DNA of 64,000 nt from Vicinamibacterales bacterium. Its GTDB lineage: Bacteria > Acidobacteriota > Vicinamibacteria > Vicinamibacterales > Fen-181. The position numbers were made by a program, and so were the translations under genes. Below are positions 7,851 to 17,548 of this stretch, piece after piece (positions within the stretch are counted from its first letter, which is position 1; every line of letters starts with the position of its first letter). Under the pieces are notes generated by a model, which was not told the DNA's origin, did not search any database, and saw only the letters and a list, made by a program, of their open reading frames with translations. The stretch is taken from assembly GCA_036504215.1 (NCBI GenBank), contig DASXVO010000016.1, forward strand, positions 312,001 to 376,000. The letters are read 5' to 3'.

Positions 7851-9161
7851 ATGTCCACTCCGAGCTTCGGTCGTCGTAGGTTCGCCAGGCTGCTGGCACT
7901 CGGCGGGCCGGCCACCGTTCTGGCTGCACCGCTCCTCGGCAACGGCCGGTCGGGAGACGAGAGACTGCCGGGCGGCCAGGCGCCCGGTGCGCTGCCGCCG
8001 ACTCCAGCGTCCCCCGATGAGGCCTTCTGGCGCGGCGTGCGGCAGCAGTTCCTGGTCCCGCCGGACCTGGCCATCCTCAACGCGGCGAATCTCTGCCCTT
8101 CGTCGGCGCCCGCCATCGAGGCGTTGACGCGTGTGACACAGGATATCGATCGGGATCCCTCGATCGAGAACAGGCGGAAGGCCGGTGAGGGCCGCGAGGC
8201 GGCACGCCGCACGATCGCCGACACGCTTCGGGTCAGCCCCGAGGAGATTCTGATCACGCGCAATACGTCAGAGGGCAACAACATCGTCTCGAGCGGCCTC
8301 GACCTCAAAGCGGGCGACGAGGTCGTGATCCTGTCGGACAACCACCCGAGCGCCCACGCGGCGTTCCGCGAGAAGGCTCGCCGATCGGGCTTCACGGTCA
8401 CGGTGGTGCAGATCGTGAGCCCGCACCCCGGCGCGGACTACTACGTTGAAGCGTTTGCCAAGGCGATCACGCCGCGGACGAAGCTCGTCGCGATCACTCA
8501 TGTCACGGCATCTGCCGGCGACCTGATCCCGGCCAGGGAGATCTGCCGCGTGGCCCGCGAACGCGGAGCGCTCACGCTGGTTGATGCGGCGCAGTCGTTC
8601 GGCGTGCTCGACATCGACCTGTCCGACATGCAGCCCGACTTCTTCACGGGCAGCGCGCACAAGTGGCCGTGTGGGCCGCGCGAGGTCGGGGTGCTCTACG
8701 TGAACCGCCGGGTGCAGGCGCAGCTCTGGCCGAGCGTCATCAGCCTGTACGCCGGCGCGCTCGGCATCTCGAAGACTCACGGCGGGCTCGGCCAGCGCGA
8801 CGAGGCGGCGATGATCGGCTTTGCCGAGGCGCTGAGGTTCCAGACGCGGATCGGGCGGACGGTGATCGAGACCCGGTCGCGGCTCCTCGCGCAGCGGCTG
8901 ATGGCGCAACTGAACGAAGTGGCCGGCGTCACGCTGTGGACTTCGCGCGACCCTGCGAGGTCGGCGGCCATCGTCACGTTCAAGCCGGGGCACCTCGACC
9001 CGGCGAAGCTCGCCAGCACGCTCTACGAGAGGGAACGGATTGCATGCACGGCGCGCAGCGGCGCCGACCGGCCCGGCATCCGCCTCTCGCCGCATTTCTA
9101 CAACCTGGAAGCGGAGGTCGACCGCACCGTGGCGGCAGTGCGGAAGTACATCTCGGCATAG
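7851..9161 (+). CDS. Tat-exported class V aminotransferase-fold PLP enzyme
   Basis: A 436-residue PLP enzyme of the cysteine desulfurase / isopenicillin-N-epimerase branch. It begins with a twin-arginine leader (RRRFARLL, then a hydrophobic stretch), so it is probably folded before export to the periplasm. The PLP Asp is in VDAAQS (Asp245) and the Schiff-base Lys is Lys271 in SAHKW. NTSEGNN matches the phosphate-binding region. No catalytic loop Cys for desulfurase activity is evident, which favours an epimerase-type or amine-acting enzyme. AGGAGG stands about a dozen bases before ATG 7851. The substrate is unknown. Exported PLP enzymes of this kind are well represented in this phylum by my recollection, which is not checked here. 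Confidence 0.88.
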
Positions 9162-9255: not shown

Positions 9256-9524
9256 ATCGGACACACGGATCGTCGTCTGCTTGCTGACCTTGTAGGGCCG
9301 CATCCTCTCGTTGTCCTGGTGATCGAGGATGTGGCAGTGCCACACGCAGCCTGGTCCCACCGCACGAGGAGACTGGTCACCTGCCCGGGCATCGCATTCG
9401 CGGTGTCCTTCCAGCCCGACACAGAGGAGGCGGCTGCCGAGGCCGCGCCGAAAAGGTGCGGACCGACCGCCGGATTGCCGCCCACGACCCCGTGGAGGTG
9501 CAGCACGGTCGGCACCGGCCCCCG
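9256..9524 (-). pseudogene. Remnant of a multicopper oxidase C-terminal domain (frameshifted)
   Basis: Reading the minus strand, one frame gives VLHLHG near 9500 and then GWKDT...MPGQV...LLVRWDQ. A neighbouring frame picks up at once with [12 protein letters not shown], then [11 protein letters not shown], near 9342-9260. In intact multicopper oxidases these blocks lie in a single frame: HLHG and HCHxxxH hold the type 1 and type 3 copper ligands. The spacing of about 50 residues between them is right. The shift falls near 9345-9358. No intact upstream part is found, so this is a broken gene scrap, not a working enzyme. A sequencing error is an alternative, but the missing N-terminal two thirds speak for true decay. 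Confidence 0.75.
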
Positions 9525-9822: not shown

Positions 9823-11172
9823 ATGATCGATTCCACGCCGTCGCCGTCGTCGGTGCTCGCATTCGTGACGACGATTCACGCGGGCCTCCTCGTCCTCAGG
9901 CTGCATCGGACGCCGGCTCCCGCGGTGTGGCTGATCGCGCTCCCGTCGCTCGCGCTGGCCGCCGCCCCGTGGACGCTGAGTACGCCGGCCGGTCTCGCGG
10001 CCGGACTCGCGACTCATCTCCTCTGGTTCGTTGCGTGCGAGAAACTGATCCCGGCCCGCGACGTCGCAGGGGCCCGAGCCGAGACGCCAGGAGCGGTCAG
10101 GCAATGCGTCCCCGCTCGCGGCGCTGGTCGCGCGGATCGTCCAGCGTCTCTGGTGACCGCAGTACCGGTGCTGGCCGTCCGCGACGAGACGGAGACGATT
10201 CGCACGTTCCGCGTCGGGCGTCCGCCGGGCTTAAGCTTCCAGGCCGGCCAGTTCCTCGCGGTGCAGGTGCAGACGGACGGCCGCACGCAGGTGCGCTGCT
10301 ATTCGATCAGTTCCTCGCCGGAGACGATCGGCTATCTCGAGATGTCCGTGCGGCGTCAGGGCCAGGTGTCCAACCTGCTCCACGCCACCGTCCGCCCCGG
10401 CGCCAGCCTGATCGTGCGCCCGCCGGGCGGCCAGTTCGTCTACCCGGAGGGTGAGGAACGTTCCCTGGTTCTCATCGGCGGCGGTGTGGGAATCACGCCG
10501 CTCATGAGCATGCTCCGGCACGCGACGGCCTCCGATCCGACCCGCGCTGTCACGCTGCTCTACTCCGTGCGAACGCACGCCGACATCGCGTTCCGCGACG
10601 AGTTGGCGCTCATCGCGCGCCTGCACCCCCAGATCAAGATCGTGATCTCGTTGACCGGCGAAACGACGGTTGATGTGTATCGGCGGGGGCGGATCGACGA
10701 AGCGCTGGTGCGGGAGACGGTGGCCGACCCCGCCGGCTCGATCTTCATGCTGTGCGGCCCGCTGGCCATGATCGATGACACGCGCGCGCTGCTCGAGCGC
10801 CTCGACGTGCCGGCCGCACAGATTCGAGCGGAAGCCTTCGAGGTAGCCGTCGCGCTGGGCGCGTCGGTCCCGGGCGGAGAAGCTGCGCGTGCCGGCATGC
10901 CGGCGCGCACTGGTGGCGGCCGGCTCAGACTCTCGAAGAGCGGGCGGACCGTCCCCGTGCTGGAGGGTCAGTCATTGCTCGAAGCGGCCGAGGACGCGGG
11001 CGTGGATATCCCGTCGCTGTGTCGGTCGGGCGTGTGCGGCACATGTCGGACGCGCGTGGTCTCGGGCCGGCCCGTATGCGCATCCGACGCGATGGATCCG
11101 GACGATCGGGCCAGGGGCTACGTGCTGCCCTGCGTGACGTGGCTGGACGGCGACTGCGAGGTCGAAGCGTAG
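9823..11172 (+). CDS. Membrane-anchored FAD/NAD(P)H oxidoreductase with C-terminal plant-type [2Fe-2S] domain
   Basis: A 449-residue flavin reductase, first gene of the cytochrome operon. Residues 10-75 are hydrophobic, probably two or three membrane helices, with His19, His28 and His65 in or beside them. A ferredoxin-NADP reductase unit follows: FAD motif RCYS (158-161), nucleotide motif GGGVG (219-223), and CGP (311-313). The C-terminal ferredoxin domain has Cys400, Cys405, Cys408 and Cys437 for one [2Fe-2S] cluster. The family moves electrons between NAD(P)H, flavin and the cluster. Here the anchor and the next genes suggest delivery to membrane heme. The start ATG 9823 has no clear ribosome site; upstream in-frame starts would cross the operator region. 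Two bases separate its stop from the next start. Confidence 0.9.
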   Translation: MIDSTPSPSSVLAFVTTIHAGLLVLRLHRTPAPAVWLIALPSLALAAAPWTLSTPAGLAAGLATHLLWFVACEKLIPARDVAGARAETPGAVRQCVPARGAGRADRPASLVTAVPVLAVRDETETIRTFRVGRPPGLSFQAGQFLAVQVQTDGRTQVRCYSISSSPETIGYLEMSVRRQGQVSNLLHATVRPGASLIVRPPGGQFVYPEGEERSLVLIGGGVGITPLMSMLRHATASDPTRAVTLLYSVRTHADIAFRDELALIARLHPQIKIVISLTGETTVDVYRRGRIDEALVRETVADPAGSIFMLCGPLAMIDDTRALLERLDVPAAQIRAEAFEVAVALGASVPGGEAARAGMPARTGGGRLRLSKSGRTVPVLEGQSLLEAAEDAGVDIPSLCRSGVCGTCRTRVVSGRPVCASDAMDPDDRARGYVLPCVTWLDGDCEVEA

Positions 11173-11174
11173 CG

Positions 11175-12095
11175 ATGGCGGACGTTGTGACGACACCCCG
11201 CGGACGCGCCGATGACTGGTGGCGCCCCTCCGCGATCTTCAACGTCCTCACCGCCAGTGGGCTCGCGGCCCTCGCCGTCGCCGTGTGGGTGCTCTTCGTC
11301 GCCGGCGGTTGGGACTACTACGCGACCCCGCTGCGCGTGAGGGCCTACGCGCCGGCCCATCGGATGCTCGACCCGTCGGGGCCGATCGGCCACGTCCTGG
11401 GCGTCGTCGGCCTGCTGATGATGCTCGTGCCGGTTGCCTACTCGGTGAGGAAGAAGTGGAAGCGGCTGTCGAATCTGGGGCAGATGAAGCACTGGCTCGA
11501 CGTGCACGTCTTCTGCGGAACCGTCGGCCCGGTGCTGGTGACGTTTCATGCGGCGATGAAGTTCAACGGGGTCATCTCGGTGGCGTACTGGTCGATGGTG
11601 GCGGTGGTGCTGTCGGGATTCGTCGGGCGCTATCTCTACGTCCGTCTGCCGCGAACGATTCGGGGCACGGAACTGAGCTACGACCAGATTCTGACCCGCG
11701 CAGTGGGTCTGAGGACGAACCTGGCGGCCACCGGCGTCGATCCGTCGCTGCTCGCGGAGATCGATGCCGCGGAACGCGCCGTGCAGCCGACCTACGACGC
11801 GGCCTCGTGGTGGGACTACCTCGTCAGCCCGGTGCGCGACTACGTCCGTCTGCGCGGGGTTCATCGCCGCCTGCGACGCGCCGGGCTCGACCGGCAGCGA
11901 GTGCATGAGGTCACGCGTCTTGCAGGCGACCGTGCGCTGCTCCTTCGTCGTCTGGCGTATCTCGACCGGACGCGTCGGCTCTTCGCACTGTGGCACGTGT
12001 TCCATCAGCCCCTGGTCTACGTGATGTTCGGGATCGCCCTCGTCCACATCGTGCTGGCGATCTACTTCGGCTACGCCTACCTCCTTCAGGGATGA
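11175..12095 (+). CDS. Cytochrome-b-like integral membrane protein of the cytochrome operon
   Basis: A 306-residue protein with five probable helices (about 19-45, 70-91, 108-128, 133-157 and 272-303) and a charged loop of about 110 residues between the fourth and fifth. Histidines sit in or near the helices: His73, His106, His111, His125, His274, His277 and His291. The spacing 111/125 and 277/291, 14 residues each, is the classic one for two b hemes stacked across a helix pair. No database family is recognised with certainty; ferric-reductase-like and b561-like proteins are the nearest in plan. Gene order suggests that it passes electrons from the flavin/[2Fe-2S] partner to the periplasmic cytochrome. 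It starts two bases after the reductase stop. Confidence 0.72.
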   Translation: MADVVTTPRGRADDWWRPSAIFNVLTASGLAALAVAVWVLFVAGGWDYYATPLRVRAYAPAHRMLDPSGPIGHVLGVVGLLMMLVPVAYSVRKKWKRLSNLGQMKHWLDVHVFCGTVGPVLVTFHAAMKFNGVISVAYWSMVAVVLSGFVGRYLYVRLPRTIRGTELSYDQILTRAVGLRTNLAATGVDPSLLAEIDAAERAVQPTYDAASWWDYLVSPVRDYVRLRGVHRRLRRAGLDRQRVHEVTRLAGDRALLLRRLAYLDRTRRLFALWHVFHQPLVYVMFGIALVHIVLAIYFGYAYLLQG

Positions 12096-12102
12096 CGCCG
12101 AG

Positions 12103-15100
12103 ATGACCAGCTCCACTCCGAGTCGTTGTCGGGCCGCGTGGCGTGTCGTGTGTGCCCTCGTCGTGGCCTTCCTGTGCACTCCGATGCCGGCACGTGCTCA
12201 GGCAAGCGCCCTCGTGTCTCCGGGCCCGCTGACAAGAGCGCATGCCCGCCTGGAGGGGCTTGCGAACTGCGAGAAGTGCCACGAGCCGGGGCGCAAGGTC
12301 ACCGCGAGCCGCTGCCTGACGTGCCACAAGATGGTCGCCGACCGGATCGCCGCACACCGAGGGGTGCACCGCGACGTGCGGAGCGATTGCGCCACGTGCC
12401 ACGCCGAGCACGCCGGTGTGGACGCGGAACTACGGCCCTTCGATACGCGGCGCTTCAACCACCTCGCCGAAACGGGTTTTGCCCTCAGCGGCAAGCACGA
12501 ACCCCTGGCGCGCGACTGCGCCAAGTGCCACAAGACCCGGTCGTTCCTGACCGCACAGCCAGCGTGCACGGCCTGCCACGCCGACACTCACCGCGGTTCG
12601 CTCGGCCCGAACTGCACGAGTTGCCACTCGACGGCCGTGGCGTTCGCCGGCGCCAGGCAGCAGTTCGACCACTCGCGCGCCAAGTTCCTGCTCGTCGGCG
12701 CGCATCGCACGGTGGAGTGCGCACGATGCCACGTGAACAAGGTGTTCGCCGGACTGAAGTTCGCCGCGTGTGTCGACTGCCATCGCCAGCCGCACAGGCA
12801 GATGTTCAGTGGCGACTGCACGTCCTGCCACAACAATGACACCTGGCGAACGCGGAAGGTCGATCACGCCCGGACGCCGTTCCCGTTGCGTGGCGCGCAC
12901 TCGAGCGTCGCCTGCGCGTCGTGTCACGTGAAGTCCGCCGTGCAGGTCCGCCTGAAAGCGGAGCGGTGCGTGGACTGCCATGCCGACGTGCATCGCGGCC
13001 AGTTCAAGCAGGACTGCATCAAGTGTCACCAGGAGACCAGCTTCCGAAAGGCGCCCTTCGACCACGGAACGCAGACGCGTTTTGCCCTCACCGGCAAGCA
13101 TGCCGCACTCGCGTGCGGCAAGTGTCACAAGGCTGCATCGACACTCGCCACCAGCAGCCGGACGGCCGGCCCCGGTGCATCAATCACGAAGGCGGTGCTG
13201 TTCACCGGCCTGTCGAGCGCGTGCGCGTCGTGCCACGAGGACATCCACCGCGGCGCGACGGGCCCGGCGTGCCAGACCTGTCACTCCACATCGGACTTCC
13301 ACGCCGTCACCTACACACACGCGCCCGCGCTCAACGCGTTCTTCGTCGGCCGGCACGGGGCGACAGCCTCCACGTGCGGCGCATGCCACGGGTCGCTGGG
13401 TCCTCGGGCCGGGATCTCCCCGACCGCTTCGCCCCTCGCGGTTACGGGCACGCACTCCCCATCGCCTGTCATGCCGATCGGCCGCTGGACGTTCAAGAGC
13501 CTCGGCACCGTGTGCGCGACATGCCACGCCGACGCTCACGAGGGGGAATTCGCCGGCTCGTGCGACCGCTGCCACGCGATCGACGAGACCCGGTTCAGTG
13601 CCAGTCGCTTCTCGCACGCCAGCACGGGGTTTCCGTTGAACGGCAAGCACAAGGCGGTGGATTGCGCTCGTTGCCACAAGCGCGGGGGCACACCGTCGTC
13701 GCCGCCCGGCGCGTCGTTGCCAGGCGGTCCGCCGACGAGGACCAACGGGCCGGCGGTCACCCTGGTCTCGCTGGTGTCACCTCAGACGCTTGCGCCGCCA
13801 CCGGGCGGCGCGCGCCCGCCGAAGTTCAAGGGCATGGGCAAGGAATGTGCGTCGTGTCACCAGGACGTGCACCTCGGACAGCTCGGAAACCGCTGCGGTT
13901 TGTGTCATACCGAGGACACGTTCGCCCTGCCGAAGTACGTCCACCCCGCCCCGATTCGCCCCTTGCTCGTCGGCAGCCACGGCACGCTCGCGTGCCGCGC
14001 GTGTCACAAGTCGGAGACCGGGACGTTCCCGGCTGGTCGCGGCGTGGCGGTCCGTTTCAAGGGCTTCGGCACGGCGTGCGCCTCCTGCCACCGGAACGAC
14101 GATGCGCACCGCGGGGCGCTCGGCGTTGCGTGCGAACAGTGCCACACGCCGCAGCGATGGGAGTCGGCGTCGCGCGCCTTCCACAAGGACGGGATCTTTC
14201 CCCTCGAGGGCCGTCACCTCACCGTGCCGTGCGCGAGCTGCCACCTCAACGGCGTCATCAAGGGAACGCCCACCCAGTGCTACGACTGTCATTGGAGCCG
14301 GCGCCACGACGACCCCTACCAGACCCGGCTGGGCACGCAGTGCGAGGATTGCCACCGGCCGGTCGCCTGGACGGCTGTCAACTGGAACCACAGCGCGCGC
14401 ACGGGGTTCGCGCTCAACGTGGCACACCAGGTCCTGCGGTGCGACTCGTGCCACAAGGAACAGCGTTTCGAGGCCACCCGGGGCATGAGCTGCGCCTCCT
14501 GCCACCAGGACGCCTACCGGCGAACGACGCAGCCCAATCACGCGGCGGCGGGCTTCCCGCTCGCCTGCGAGGCCTGTCACCAGGCGTCACAGGCGTCCTG
14601 GAGCCAGGCGGCCTTCGACCACAACAGCCGCTTCCCGCTGGTCGGCGTGCATGCGTCGCAGGCCTGCGCCTCGTGCCACAAGAACAGCCTCTTCGCTGGC
14701 ACGCCCCGCGACTGCTTCAGCTGCCATCGGGCCGACTACCAGAAGACGGCCAGCCCCAATCACGCCGCCGCTGGATTCTCGACCACGTGCGAGCAGTGCC
14801 ACCGCTCGACGGACCCGACCTGGACCAGCGGACAGGGCTTCAACCACAACTCGGTCTTCGCGCTCGTCGGCGTGCACGCAACCCAGGCCTGTGCGGCGTG
14901 CCACAAGAACAACGTCTACAAGGGGACGTCGCGCGACTGCGTCGGCTGCCACCTCACCAGCTACCAGAAGACGACCAGCCCGAACCACGTTTCCGCCGGG
15001 CTCCCGACCACGTGCGAGCAATGCCACCGCAACACCGATGCGAGCTGGTCGAGCAGCCAGGGCTTCAACCACAACGCGACGTTCCCGCTCGTCGGCGTGC

Positions 15101-16176
15101 ATGCAACGCAGGCCTGCACGGCGTGTCACAAGAACGGCGTCTACAAGGGCACGCCCCGCGACTGCGTCGGCTGCCATCTCGCCGACTACCAGAAGACGAC
15201 GAGTCCGAATCACGCGTCGGCCGGATTCAGCACGACGTGTGACTCGTGCCACAGGCCGACCGATCCGGCCTGGAAGAACGGCGGCTTCAACCACGCGAGT
15301 GTCTTCCCGCTGGTCGGCCTGCACGCGACGCAGGCCTGCACGGCGTGCCACAAGAACGGCGTCTACAAGGGCACGCCCCGCGACTGCGTCGGCTGCCATC
15401 TTGCCGCCTATCAGAAGACGACGAACCCGAACCACGCGGCGGCGGGCTTCCCGACCACGTGCGACCAGTGCCACCAGGCCTCCGCCTCGGCCTGGCAGGG
15501 TGCCGGGTTCAACCATGCAGCCTTCTTCCCGCTCGTCGGGCTGCACGCCACGCAGATCTGCGCTGCATGCCACAAGAACGGCGTCTACAAGGGCACACCG
15601 CGCGACTGCGTCGGCTGCCACCTCGCCAACTACCAGAAGACCACGAACCCGAACCACGCAGCCGCCGGGTTTGCCACCACGTGCGACTCGTGTCATCAGG
15701 CGTCGGCCTCAACGTGGTCGTCGAGCTTCGATCACAATCGGTACTGGCCGCTGCTCGGCCGTCATGCACAGCAAACGTGCTCCGCCTGTCACAAGAACAA
15801 CGTCTACGCCGGCACGTCGACGGCATGCGTGTCGTGCCACCTCACCAACTACCAGCAGACCACGAGCCCGAATCACACGGCCGCCGGTTTCCCGACGACC
15901 TGCGACACGTGTCACAAGGTGAGCGACAGCACGTGGCAGCAGGGCACGTTCAACCACAACCGGTTCCCGATTACCTCGGGACCTCACGCAGGGCAGCCGT
16001 GCTCTGTCTGTCACAACGTGGCGAACAACTTCGCGACTTTCACGTGCACCGGCTGCCACGACCGGGCGACGACCGACGGTCATCACCGGAGCGTGAACGG
16101 CTACCGATACGACTCGGCGGCGTGCTACGCCTGCCACCCCAACGGCCGCGCCGGCATCCCGATGCCGCGACCATGA
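12103..16176 (+). CDS. Giant multiheme cytochrome c with 51 CXXCH motifs in 17 three-heme modules
   Basis: A 1357-residue exported cytochrome. A signal peptide (about 1-32, ending PARAQA) is followed by heme sites to the end. I count 51 CXXCH motifs, about one per 26 residues. They fall into 17 modules of about 70-85 residues with three hemes each. The pattern is GxH then CxxCH, a second CxxCH with ADxH, and a third CxxCH with FxH. The extra His residues are enough to give most hemes two His ligands. From about residue 811 the modules become near-identical 73-75-residue repeats in which PNH replaces ADxH. No membrane anchor or lipobox is seen, so it is periplasmic or surface-exposed. Modular wires of this kind carry electrons over long distances. 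It begins eight bases after the cytochrome-b-like gene and precedes a beta-barrel gene. Automated annotation would probably say cytochrome c3 family. Confidence 0.95.
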   Translation: MTSSTPSRCRAAWRVVCALVVAFLCTPMPARAQASALVSPGPLTRAHARLEGLANCEKCHEPGRKVTASRCLTCHKMVADRIAAHRGVHRDVRSDCATCHAEHAGVDAELRPFDTRRFNHLAETGFALSGKHEPLARDCAKCHKTRSFLTAQPACTACHADTHRGSLGPNCTSCHSTAVAFAGARQQFDHSRAKFLLVGAHRTVECARCHVNKVFAGLKFAACVDCHRQPHRQMFSGDCTSCHNNDTWRTRKVDHARTPFPLRGAHSSVACASCHVKSAVQVRLKAERCVDCHADVHRGQFKQDCIKCHQETSFRKAPFDHGTQTRFALTGKHAALACGKCHKAASTLATSSRTAGPGASITKAVLFTGLSSACASCHEDIHRGATGPACQTCHSTSDFHAVTYTHAPALNAFFVGRHGATASTCGACHGSLGPRAGISPTASPLAVTGTHSPSPVMPIGRWTFKSLGTVCATCHADAHEGEFAGSCDRCHAIDETRFSASRFSHASTGFPLNGKHKAVDCARCHKRGGTPSSPPGASLPGGPPTRTNGPAVTLVSLVSPQTLAPPPGGARPPKFKGMGKECASCHQDVHLGQLGNRCGLCHTEDTFALPKYVHPAPIRPLLVGSHGTLACRACHKSETGTFPAGRGVAVRFKGFGTACASCHRNDDAHRGALGVACEQCHTPQRWESASRAFHKDGIFPLEGRHLTVPCASCHLNGVIKGTPTQCYDCHWSRRHDDPYQTRLGTQCEDCHRPVAWTAVNWNHSARTGFALNVAHQVLRCDSCHKEQRFEATRGMSCASCHQDAYRRTTQPNHAAAGFPLACEACHQASQASWSQAAFDHNSRFPLVGVHASQACASCHKNSLFAGTPRDCFSCHRADYQKTASPNHAAAGFSTTCEQCHRSTDPTWTSGQGFNHNSVFALVGVHATQACAACHKNNVYKGTSRDCVGCHLTSYQKTTSPNHVSAGLPTTCEQCHRNTDASWSSSQGFNHNATFPLVGVHATQACTACHKNGVYKGTPRDCVGCHLADYQKTTSPNHASAGFSTTCDSCHRPTDPAWKNGGFNHASVFPLVGLHATQACTACHKNGVYKGTPRDCVGCHLAAYQKTTNPNHAAAGFPTTCDQCHQASASAWQGAGFNHAAFFPLVGLHATQICAACHKNGVYKGTPRDCVGCHLANYQKTTNPNHAAAGFATTCDSCHQASASTWSSSFDHNRYWPLLGRHAQQTCSACHKNNVYAGTSTACVSCHLTNYQQTTSPNHTAAGFPTTCDTCHKVSDSTWQQGTFNHNRFPITSGPHAGQPCSVCHNVANNFATFTCTGCHDRATTDGHHRSVNGYRYDSAACYACHPNGRAGIPMPRP
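14533..15990 (+). repeat. In-frame tandem repeats of about 222 bp inside the cytochrome gene
   Basis: Units begin at the Pro codon of PNH at 14533, 14755, 14980, 15205, 15427, 15649 and 15868. The six full lengths are 222, 225, 225, 222, 222 and 219 bp, and a seventh, diverged unit ends near 15990. Each encodes three heme sites. Adjacent units share long identical DNA stretches, for example around 15111-15180 and 15333-15402, so the array grew by duplication and is young relative to the first ten modules. Copy number may vary between strains. Confidence 0.92.
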
Positions 16177-16228
16177 TGGCGACGCTCCTCAACCGTAGGT
16201 CCGTGTGCCCCCGGAGAAGGCTAACTGC

Positions 16229-17548
16229 ATGAAGCGCATTGAGGCTCTCATCGTCGCCTTGACGCTCGGCGCCGGGTCGCTGGCGTCGTCGCCGGCCCGC
16301 GCCCAGACGCGCCCCGCATGGGGACGCATCGCGCTCTTTGGCAACTCCTCCTCCACGACGCAGGCGGGCGGACAATCGAACACGTTCAACGAGTTGATCG
16401 CGAACGTGACGTTCGAGTCGGCGTCGGGCGACGAGGTGGGCTACGAGTACCGGGGCGACATGCGCCTTTCGGGCTATCCTGGTTCGACGGATCGCACCCG
16501 ACGCGCGTCGGTCTACGACCTCTACGCTTGTATCCGCCTCCGTGACGGGTCGGTGGGCGTGAGATTCGGCCAGATGTGGCTGAACGAACTGGGAGGCCTC
16601 GGCTCGGTCGGAGGTGCGATGGTCGAGGTCAGGCAGCGGTCGCAGCCGGGCCGTGGCCGTTGGCGCGCCTCGCTCTTCGGGGGGTTCGAACCGAACATCC
16701 TGGATGTCGGCTACGTCAGCCAGGTCAGGAAGTTCGGGGGACTCGTGGCGTACGACGGCCTGGGCGCACGTCGCCACGTGGTCGGCTTCGTCCACGTTCG
16801 AGACAGCGGCATGACCGAGCGCTCGGTGCTCGTCTTCACGAACTTCCTGCCGATCGACAAACGGGTCTTTGTCTACCAGGCTGCGGAATACGATGTGCGG
16901 GGGCCAGGCGTGACCGGCGCGGGCAGTCTCACCTACTTCTTCACGAACGGCCGCTATGCGCCGAACGACCGAATCGAGTTCCAGGGCCTGTTCCACCGCG
17001 GCCGTTCAATCGACTCCCGCTCCCTCGTCCGGGATCAGCTCGACGGACGGCCGATTGATCCGCGTGCGCTCGAGGGCCTGCGCTTCGAGTCGGTGAGCGG
17101 GCGAGTGACGGTCCGCCTGGCTCGCAACGTCCGGGTGTTCGGCGGCTACGGTCAGGACCGGAACAACCGGGACGATGCCGTGGCGGGGCGTCTCAACTAC
17201 GGCCTCTTCGCGTCGAACGTCGGCGGAATCGGCATCGACATCAACGCGTCCGACTCGCGCATCAATCGCGGCACGAGCGGATCCTACGATTCCTGGTACG
17301 TGTCGGTCGGCCGGACCTTCGGCGGACACGTCTACCTCTCGGCCGACTACGGGTCGTCGCTCTCGGTCTTTCGGTTCACGGGCTCGGACGGTTTCGTGAT
17401 CGAGACGCGGCCGCACTCGCGCCGCCTGGCGTTCTCGGGGCTCTTCAATCTGACACACCGGCTGTCGCTGCTGGCCACGGCGGAACGCGTGGACGACGGC
17501 ACTTCGGTCCAGACGCGCGTCATGTCCGGCATGACCTGCCGCTTCTGA
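16229..17548 (+). CDS. Small outer-membrane beta-barrel protein, partner of the giant cytochrome
   Basis: A 439-residue protein. It has a signal peptide (about 1-26, ending PARAQ) and then a run of alternating, aromatic-rich beta strands. It ends in TCRF; a terminal Phe is the usual signal for outer-membrane barrel assembly. It has no CXXCH motif and no plug domain. ATG 16229 follows GGAGAAGG by eight bases. In porin-cytochrome conduits such as MtrAB a barrel encloses a multiheme cytochrome; gene order suggests the same pairing here, though this barrel is shorter than MtrB as I know it. No family is recognised for certain. The stop at 17548 abuts the convergent pseudokinase stop at 17549. Confidence 0.75.
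   Translation: MKRIEALIVALTLGAGSLASSPARAQTRPAWGRIALFGNSSSTTQAGGQSNTFNELIANVTFESASGDEVGYEYRGDMRLSGYPGSTDRTRRASVYDLYACIRLRDGSVGVRFGQMWLNELGGLGSVGGAMVEVRQRSQPGRGRWRASLFGGFEPNILDVGYVSQVRKFGGLVAYDGLGARRHVVGFVHVRDSGMTERSVLVFTNFLPIDKRVFVYQAAEYDVRGPGVTGAGSLTYFFTNGRYAPNDRIEFQGLFHRGRSIDSRSLVRDQLDGRPIDPRALEGLRFESVSGRVTVRLARNVRVFGGYGQDRNNRDDAVAGRLNYGLFASNVGGIGIDINASDSRINRGTSGSYDSWYVSVGRTFGGHVYLSADYGSSLSVFRFTGSDGFVIETRPHSRRLAFSGLFNLTHRLSLLATAERVDDGTSVQTRVMSGMTCRF

Follow-up and report, generated by a model that had tools for sequence, protein, structure and literature searches.

From where would electrons enter a 51-heme chain that appears to cross the cell envelope of an acidobacterium, and in which direction would they run? 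The question is raised by a four-gene operon (genes A to D) in a window of 64,000 nucleotides, by which we mean the whole stretch of DNA analyzed (positions 312,001 to 376,000 of contig DASXVO010000016.1, from a Vicinamibacterales bacterium). The original prediction listed the products as a reductase, a cytochrome b, a giant cytochrome, and an outer-membrane barrel; these parts, their order, their coordinates, and the gaps between the genes (A-B, 2 bp; B-C, 7 bp; C-D, 52 bp) were all confirmed. The operon had also been put forward as an undescribed system, which was not borne out: PCC3, which He et al. reported in 2017 (PMC5566968), has the same four parts, namely, B, two cytochrome modules, and a barrel. 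Judged by its sequence, the window operon is a conduit of the PCC3 type, in a variant that has a fused 51-heme wire and probably an entry linked directly to NAD(P)H. We favor, at a probability of roughly 0.6, the reading that A-B-C-D carries electrons across the envelope as a PCC3-type conduit, with its own NAD(P)H dehydrogenase and with outward flow. The four genes are the following.

9823-11172, + strand: gene A, 449 amino acids (aa), probable reductase
11175-12095, + strand: gene B, 306 aa, cytochrome b by family signature
12103-16176, + strand: gene C, 1357 aa, multiheme cytochrome c
16229-17548, + strand: gene D, 439 aa, predicted outer-membrane beta-barrel

Gene A is probably the entry enzyme. 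Its product exceeds the Pfam cut-offs for FAD_binding_6, NAD_binding_1, and Fer2 and is best described as a probable membrane-anchored FAD/NAD(P)/[2Fe-2S] reductase of the FNR type, with the following parts.

9853-10041, + strand: membrane anchor of A, three hydrophobic segments (residues ~11-73; family-averaged hydropathy and conservation)
10195-10785, + strand: FAD- and NAD(P)-binding domains of A (residues 125-321; Pfam), with conserved RCYS and GGGVGITP motifs
10933-11139, + strand: plant-type [2Fe-2S] domain of A (residues 371-439; Pfam), with C400, C405, C408, and C437

The flavin motif R158xYS, the NAD motifs GGxGITP and CGP, and the same four cysteines are invariant across the 19 rows of the A alignment. 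The anchor matches no Pfam family; among close homologues, its His19 (16/16), His65 (15/16), and Trp68 (16/16) are conserved, and one possibility is that the two histidines hold an extra heme.

The role of A becomes clearer from what accompanies B in other genomes. Beyond the relatives of the window, B is paired with a different enzyme, A', which is nonhomologous to A and combines two [4Fe-4S] motifs and an oxidoreductase domain for pyridine nucleotides (Pyr_redox_3) with a membrane segment at the N terminus. Among the first 42 strong-B loci were 18 with A, 20 with A', 4 with neither, and none with both; by genome, 17 of the 37 Acidobacteriota genomes with B carry A, 20 carry A', and none carries both. 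At cut-offs chosen after the values were seen, A (E ≤ 1e-60) is confined, among the 57 genomes tested, to exactly the 17 whose B is a close one and is missing from the other 40, and A' (E ≤ 1e-78) occurs in exactly the remaining 18 B-bearing genomes plus G005 and G227; neither was found at those cut-offs in the 22 genomes that lack B. The next-best matches to A' are generic or fused relatives at 1e-44 or weaker, which leaves a clear gap. Where A and A' are both missing from the locus (L037, L044, L059, L109, and G227), A' is encoded elsewhere in the genome, with G567 as the sole holdout.

The association extends to a second phylum. In a sample of 369 gammaproteobacterial genomes (the class of L040), 41 had a strong B and 39 without B were tested; A' was found in 40 of the former and none of the latter (p = 8e-22). 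It lies within 2.5 kb of B at 36 of 46 loci (median, 369 bp), divergently at 35, and these loci hold B, a 21-24-heme multiheme cytochrome (MHC), a 15-69-heme MHC, and a barrel, which is the PCC3 set. A maximum likelihood tree of B accounts for A and A' with one change each, with moderate support on the A side (62/93) and an arbitrary root. The candidate explanation that A is a chance neighbor of B was rejected by the co-occurrence. Since two unrelated flavin/Fe-S enzymes of pyridine nucleotides occupy one slot, that chemistry is indicated there, and the nicotinamide/flavin entry that had been predicted in place of a CymA-like quinol oxidase was upheld, with A or A' accompanying B in 37/37 Acidobacteriota and 40/41 gammaproteobacterial genomes.

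Two further observations concern these loci. At L061, L062, and L063, B-like genes adjoin 10-heme cytochromes and a Pyr_redox protein, in which cNMP-binding-like and 4Fe-4S motifs were also seen by eye and which is possibly a third type of entry. In A'-type Acidobacteriota loci, a conserved exported protein of ~270 aa that belongs to no Pfam family is encoded between the barrel and B (L047, 9031-9849, with equivalents in L048, L050, and L056); it is absent from the window operon.

On the evidence of its sequence, B is a cytochrome b of the PCC3 inner-membrane-protein family. Only eight residues are invariant among 30 homologues (G72, K93, H111, H125, S147, G148, H277, and H291), and they include the two HX13H motifs (H111-X13-H125 and H277-X13-H291) and the start of an SGxxG at 147-151. 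The PCC3 signature is present as W107/H111-X13-H125, W273/H277-X13-H291, and S147-G148-x-x-G151, in columns that are invariant or conserved above 90%. An AlphaFold model (pLDDT, 85.6) places these motifs on helices 104-125, 132-157, and 240-297, with the histidines in the first and last of them. By analogy with the pairing in NOX2, B is predicted to hold two b hemes, one bound by H111/H277 on the cytoplasmic side and one by H125/H291 on the periplasmic side. Histidine pairs on transmembrane helices 3 and 5 are a trait of the superfamily of NOX and ferric reductases (FRD), and B has them with spacings of X13 and X13, compared to X13 and X12 in NOX2 (PMC3591440). In most short FRD proteins, only two or three of these four histidines are present, and short bacterial forms with all four group near those that bear a dehydrogenase domain (PMC3591440); the four histidines of B support its pairing with A.

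Database comparisons of B gave less. The match to Ferric_reduct (PF01794) is below threshold (14.7 bits against a cut-off of 28), and 12 of the 30 family members match that family weakly (best E, 4e-4). Foldseek and VIA-align searches with the B model returned helical-bundle matches only, with SpNOX and cytochrome b6 inside the noise, a profile search of the PDB with the B alignment returned only coiled-coil noise, and no sequence relatives of B were found in the PDB.

A and B would then be equivalent to a two-piece NADPH oxidase or ferric reductase, in which C and D put a wire in the place of the acceptor. A split NOX-like pair could also be imagined to pass electrons to O2, either in the periplasm or at the cell surface, with superoxide or H2O2 as the product and C as a capacitor or store. 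The host does meet O2, as its genome encodes a heme-copper oxidase, which together with genes for Ccm-type cytochrome c assembly suggests that it is probably aerobic or facultative. We nevertheless consider such an oxidase highly improbable, because it would need neither 51 hemes nor a dedicated barrel and because reaction with O2 would be a side reaction of any low-potential wire.

Gene C encodes 51 CxxCH motifs in 1357 residues behind a single signal peptide, and beyond the signal-peptide region, it has no cysteine outside these motifs. The protein falls into two halves.

12103-14157, + strand: C1 half (residues 1-685), 24 CxxCH, 43-49% identical to separate 24-heme proteins in nine split-gene relatives
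14158-16176, + strand: C2 half (residues 686-1357), 27 CxxCH in three-heme repeats of 75 aa, 54-59% identical to separate 13-27-heme proteins

In those nine relatives, C is encoded as two genes, C1 and C2, whose products bind 24 and up to 27 hemes, respectively, and have separate signal peptides, and the division into 24 and 27 hemes is exactly that seen in G191, G304, and G306. In the fused protein, the end of C1 passes directly into the start of mature C2 (...CEQCHTPQRWESASRAFHKDG... vs ...AQFETPNRAFH...). Seven genomes have the fused form (G000, G268, G279, G275, G029, G176, and G005); an assembly artifact was rejected as the source of the 51-heme protein, because fused junctions are found in six genomes besides that of the window. 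C1 is homologous to 18-24-heme proteins that adjoin B in Bradyrhizobium and Gammaproteobacteria, and the sequence of C2 is homologous to that of the large MHCs at PCC3-like loci. By these homologies, C is a fusion of the equivalents of the PCC3 periplasmic (C1) and extracellular (C2) cytochromes. The “giant periplasmic cytochrome” of the original prediction is refined in one respect: it joins a 24-heme module to a 27-heme module, which relatives encode as two genes. Because C1 and C2 form one protein in seven genomes and two proteins in nine, they would act as one unit, and the fusion implies two modules placed side by side, one to one.

The product of D is predicted from its AlphaFold model (mean pLDDT, 83.7) to be a 22-stranded outer-membrane beta-barrel with a signal-peptide helix, a C-terminal Phe, and no plug. 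No Pfam or NCBIfam match was found for D. The best VIA-align rows are the outer-membrane barrels of TonB receptors (22 strands, plug excluded) and porins, with Z of about 16-19; MtrB is not among the top structural rows, an absence that excludes nothing.

In further genera and families of the class, the four genes keep the same order and the same neighbors, as A-B-(C1-C2 or C)-D, and the gap from A to B is 0-30 bp at most loci. Homologues of D occur in 16 of the 192 other genomes of the class. B and D are both present in 12 of the 192, with D only in 4, B only in 2, and neither in 174, so that the two are associated (Fisher p = 4e-14, an optimistic value because the genomes share ancestry). 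Within the limits set by contig ends, 12 of the 16 other D-bearing genomes keep the whole set (A, B, either C1/C2 or C, and D) in one place. Homologues that do not stay together would have spoken against a single system, and for the most part they were not seen; the exceptions are G268, G279, G269, which has only a fragment of D, and G276, which is too short to judge. The recurrence of the four neighbors is far beyond chance.

Some loci vary the outer end of the system. In G245 and G257 (loci L107 and L108), A-B-C1 adjoins a set of genes in place of C2-D, namely, those for an 11-heme cytochrome, an NHL protein, a 626-aa protein of no family, a PPIase, and a 4-heme cytochrome; apart from the 626-aa protein, this is the Uet parts list as summarized in PMC10734462. 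The position of A-B-C1 beside this Uet-like set points to the same entry with another exit. The host genome itself encodes a second C1-type cytochrome with 23 CxxCH (L105 [G000:C20], 11631-16910), which adjoins NHL-repeat and 11-heme genes close to a contig end and is perhaps part of a Uet-like system.

The three-gene operons at L067, L068, and L073 encode an A-like reductase with a longer N terminus, a 7-heme cytochrome, and a cytochrome b that resembles B, with no barrel; they form a third, distant group on the B tree. Operons of this makeup lend some color to the idea that A-B-C respires or detoxifies a soluble periplasmic substrate imported by D. We would be surprised if this were the function in the window, whose operon has no catalytic subunit and whose C2 half is a repetitive, all-heme wire, and the association of C1, C2, and a barrel is the hallmark of PCC3.

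Several observations weigh against an outward conduit fed by NAD(P)H. In G268, which belongs to the same genus and is 83% complete, fused C and D are present without A or B, and a gene for a b561-type cytochrome b (PF01292) lies divergent to them (L087, 2492-3529, - strand); G279 likewise has C-D and is missing A-B. The b561 type is typical of quinone-linked chains, so a quinol entry may serve the C-D wire in G268, and the arrangement at L087 is a possible swap of the entry module. B aligns to SpNOX (8qt6) with Z 6.9 and root mean square deviation 3.9 over 125 residues at 18% identity, which is below helical-bundle noise. C2 has no lipobox, and its exposure at the cell surface is assumed. In strain CL21, one PCC3 inner-membrane gene is up at the iron-oxidizing stage (PMC12442390). 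Finally, B could also accept electrons from quinol.

The last point leads to the published model of PCC3, which is quinone linked (PMC5566968). According to this model, B would exchange electrons with the quinone pool, and A would be an accessory, such as a quinone or flavin reductase or a factor for heme assembly or redox repair. B does resemble not only ferric reductases but also cytochromes b that react with quinones, and the b561-type gene next to C-D in G268 agrees with a quinone link. We think this account unlikely for the window operon because A or A' is strictly present with B and absent without it, because A heads the operon at a distance of 2 bp from B, and because B, like the forms coupled to a dehydrogenase, has the complete set of four FRD histidines.

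We therefore return to the conduit with its own dehydrogenase, for which we propose the following path. Cytoplasmic NAD(P)H, as NADH or NADPH, would reduce the FAD of A, from which electrons would move one at a time to the [2Fe-2S] cluster. They would then cross the inner membrane through B, from its b heme on the cytoplasmic side to the one on the periplasmic side, and enter the 24-heme C1 half, which may be long enough to span the periplasm. Barrel D would lead them from C1 to the C2 half, with its 27 hemes at or beyond the outer membrane, and from there they would reach an extracellular acceptor, such as a metal oxide, humic matter, another cell, or perhaps O2. Such a conduit could give the host an electron outlet when oxygen is short. 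Electrons leaving from the negative side would consume membrane potential rather than generate it, which makes an electron vent or redox balancing more likely than an energy-conserving respiration.

Outward flow from NAD(P)H is downhill and is aided by the membrane potential, and inward flow from Fe(II) to NAD(P)+ is uphill on both counts. These energetics would favor the outward direction, on a point that the original prediction had left open. An inward conduit, in which Fe(II) or another external donor feeds D, C, and B and NAD(P)+ is reduced at A, is in our judgment very doubtful: Fe(II) is a much weaker reductant than NADH, and the flow would oppose the membrane potential. An NAD(P)-linked end is what an autotroph needs, and PCC3 is common in iron oxidizers and widely predicted to oxidize iron (PMC10734462, PMC13386937). 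In Sideroxydans ES-1, however, both PCC3 clusters (Slit_0867-0870 and Slit_1446-1449; PMC5566968) show lower levels with Fe(II) than with thiosulfate (PMC8788666), which fits outward flow.

Upstream of A lies the following gene, followed by 660 bp that are free of intact genes.

7851-9161, + strand: aminotransferase class V gene

The genes 3' of D are on the opposite strand and encode a kinase-like fragment, an ECF-type sigma factor, and a PDZ-kinase. This flanking layout, with space upstream and opposite-strand genes downstream, suggests that A-D is a self-contained unit. A promoter and terminator scan gave no signal exceeding that of shuffled sequences. Directly 5' of A is a frameshifted relic in two reading frames (9290-9520, - strand) that resembles the C terminus of a multicopper oxidase and has no Pfam match. 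The host genome comprises 5.9 Mb in 90 contigs, and its phylum is labeled Acidobacteriota in the tree analysis. Among named relatives, the closest in its B protein is a MAG (metagenome-assembled genome; L035) from Acidobacteria, at 49% identity.

PCC3 clusters are widespread and are listed as likely iron oxidases. To our knowledge, PCC3 has no tested function and no known membrane entry point. The strict link, in two phyla, to flavin/Fe-S enzymes of the NAD(P)H type would supply the missing partner and predicts outward flow; this obligate partner, in two nonhomologous versions, is the part most worth following. More tentatively, and as a generalization that might go either way, we postulate that PCC3-type conduits are a quinone-independent class of wires, fed directly from NAD(P)H in the cytoplasm by a split unit resembling NOX, whose entry slot either of two unrelated flavin enzymes (FNR-type A or TrxR-type A') can fill. 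These conduits would be outward vents and not iron oxidases, with the lineage of the window having one continuous 51-heme chain threaded through the barrel. The fused protein, in which periplasmic and outer cytochromes would make up one continuous 1:1 wire, is a ready target for structural work. In the running text of He et al. and of the later papers, to which the search was confined, we found no mention of A' or of an oxidoreductase with PCC3; the flavin entry enzyme, its nonhomologous replacement A', and the fusion of the giant cytochromes seem to be new.

Among known systems, PCC3, since recorded in many Proteobacteria, is the nearest. Like the window operon, it has, in a single cluster, an inner-membrane family with two WX3HX13H motifs and SGxxG, a periplasmic module of ~21-24 hemes, a larger module of the extracellular type, and a large barrel. 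The C1 half, with 24 CxxCH, corresponds to the periplasmic MHC (~21 hemes), though as part of C; the C2 half, with 27, corresponds to the extracellular MHC by sequence, its location being presumed; and D corresponds to the porin by its predicted 22-stranded barrel. All lie in one cluster in the window, where the two MHCs form a single protein and A is an additional gene. The periplasmic and extracellular cytochromes of PCC3 are separate, whereas C fuses both; elsewhere, PCC3 has a TrxR-type A' nearby, whereas in the window, an FNR-type NAD(P)H reductase comes first in the operon; and proteobacterial PCC3 barrels have N-terminal domains that D (439 aa) lacks.

NOX and ferric reductases, together with MsrQ (YedZ), share with A and B a heme b membrane protein with four canonical histidines on two helices and a reductase for FAD and NAD(P)H. 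A and B differ from them in being two separate proteins, in having an added [2Fe-2S] domain, and in that they would pass electrons to c hemes. Mtr, Pio, and Omb conduits likewise combine a barrel with a multiheme cytochrome spanning the outer membrane. Their entry is by quinol, whereas the window operon has A and B and no CymA-type gene, and their cytochromes have 8-12 hemes compared to 51 in C, with no common cytochrome or barrel family established. Uet/OmcE-type nanowire systems touch on this operon through the two relatives that join A-B-C1 to a Uet-like set, a set that the window operon itself does not have.

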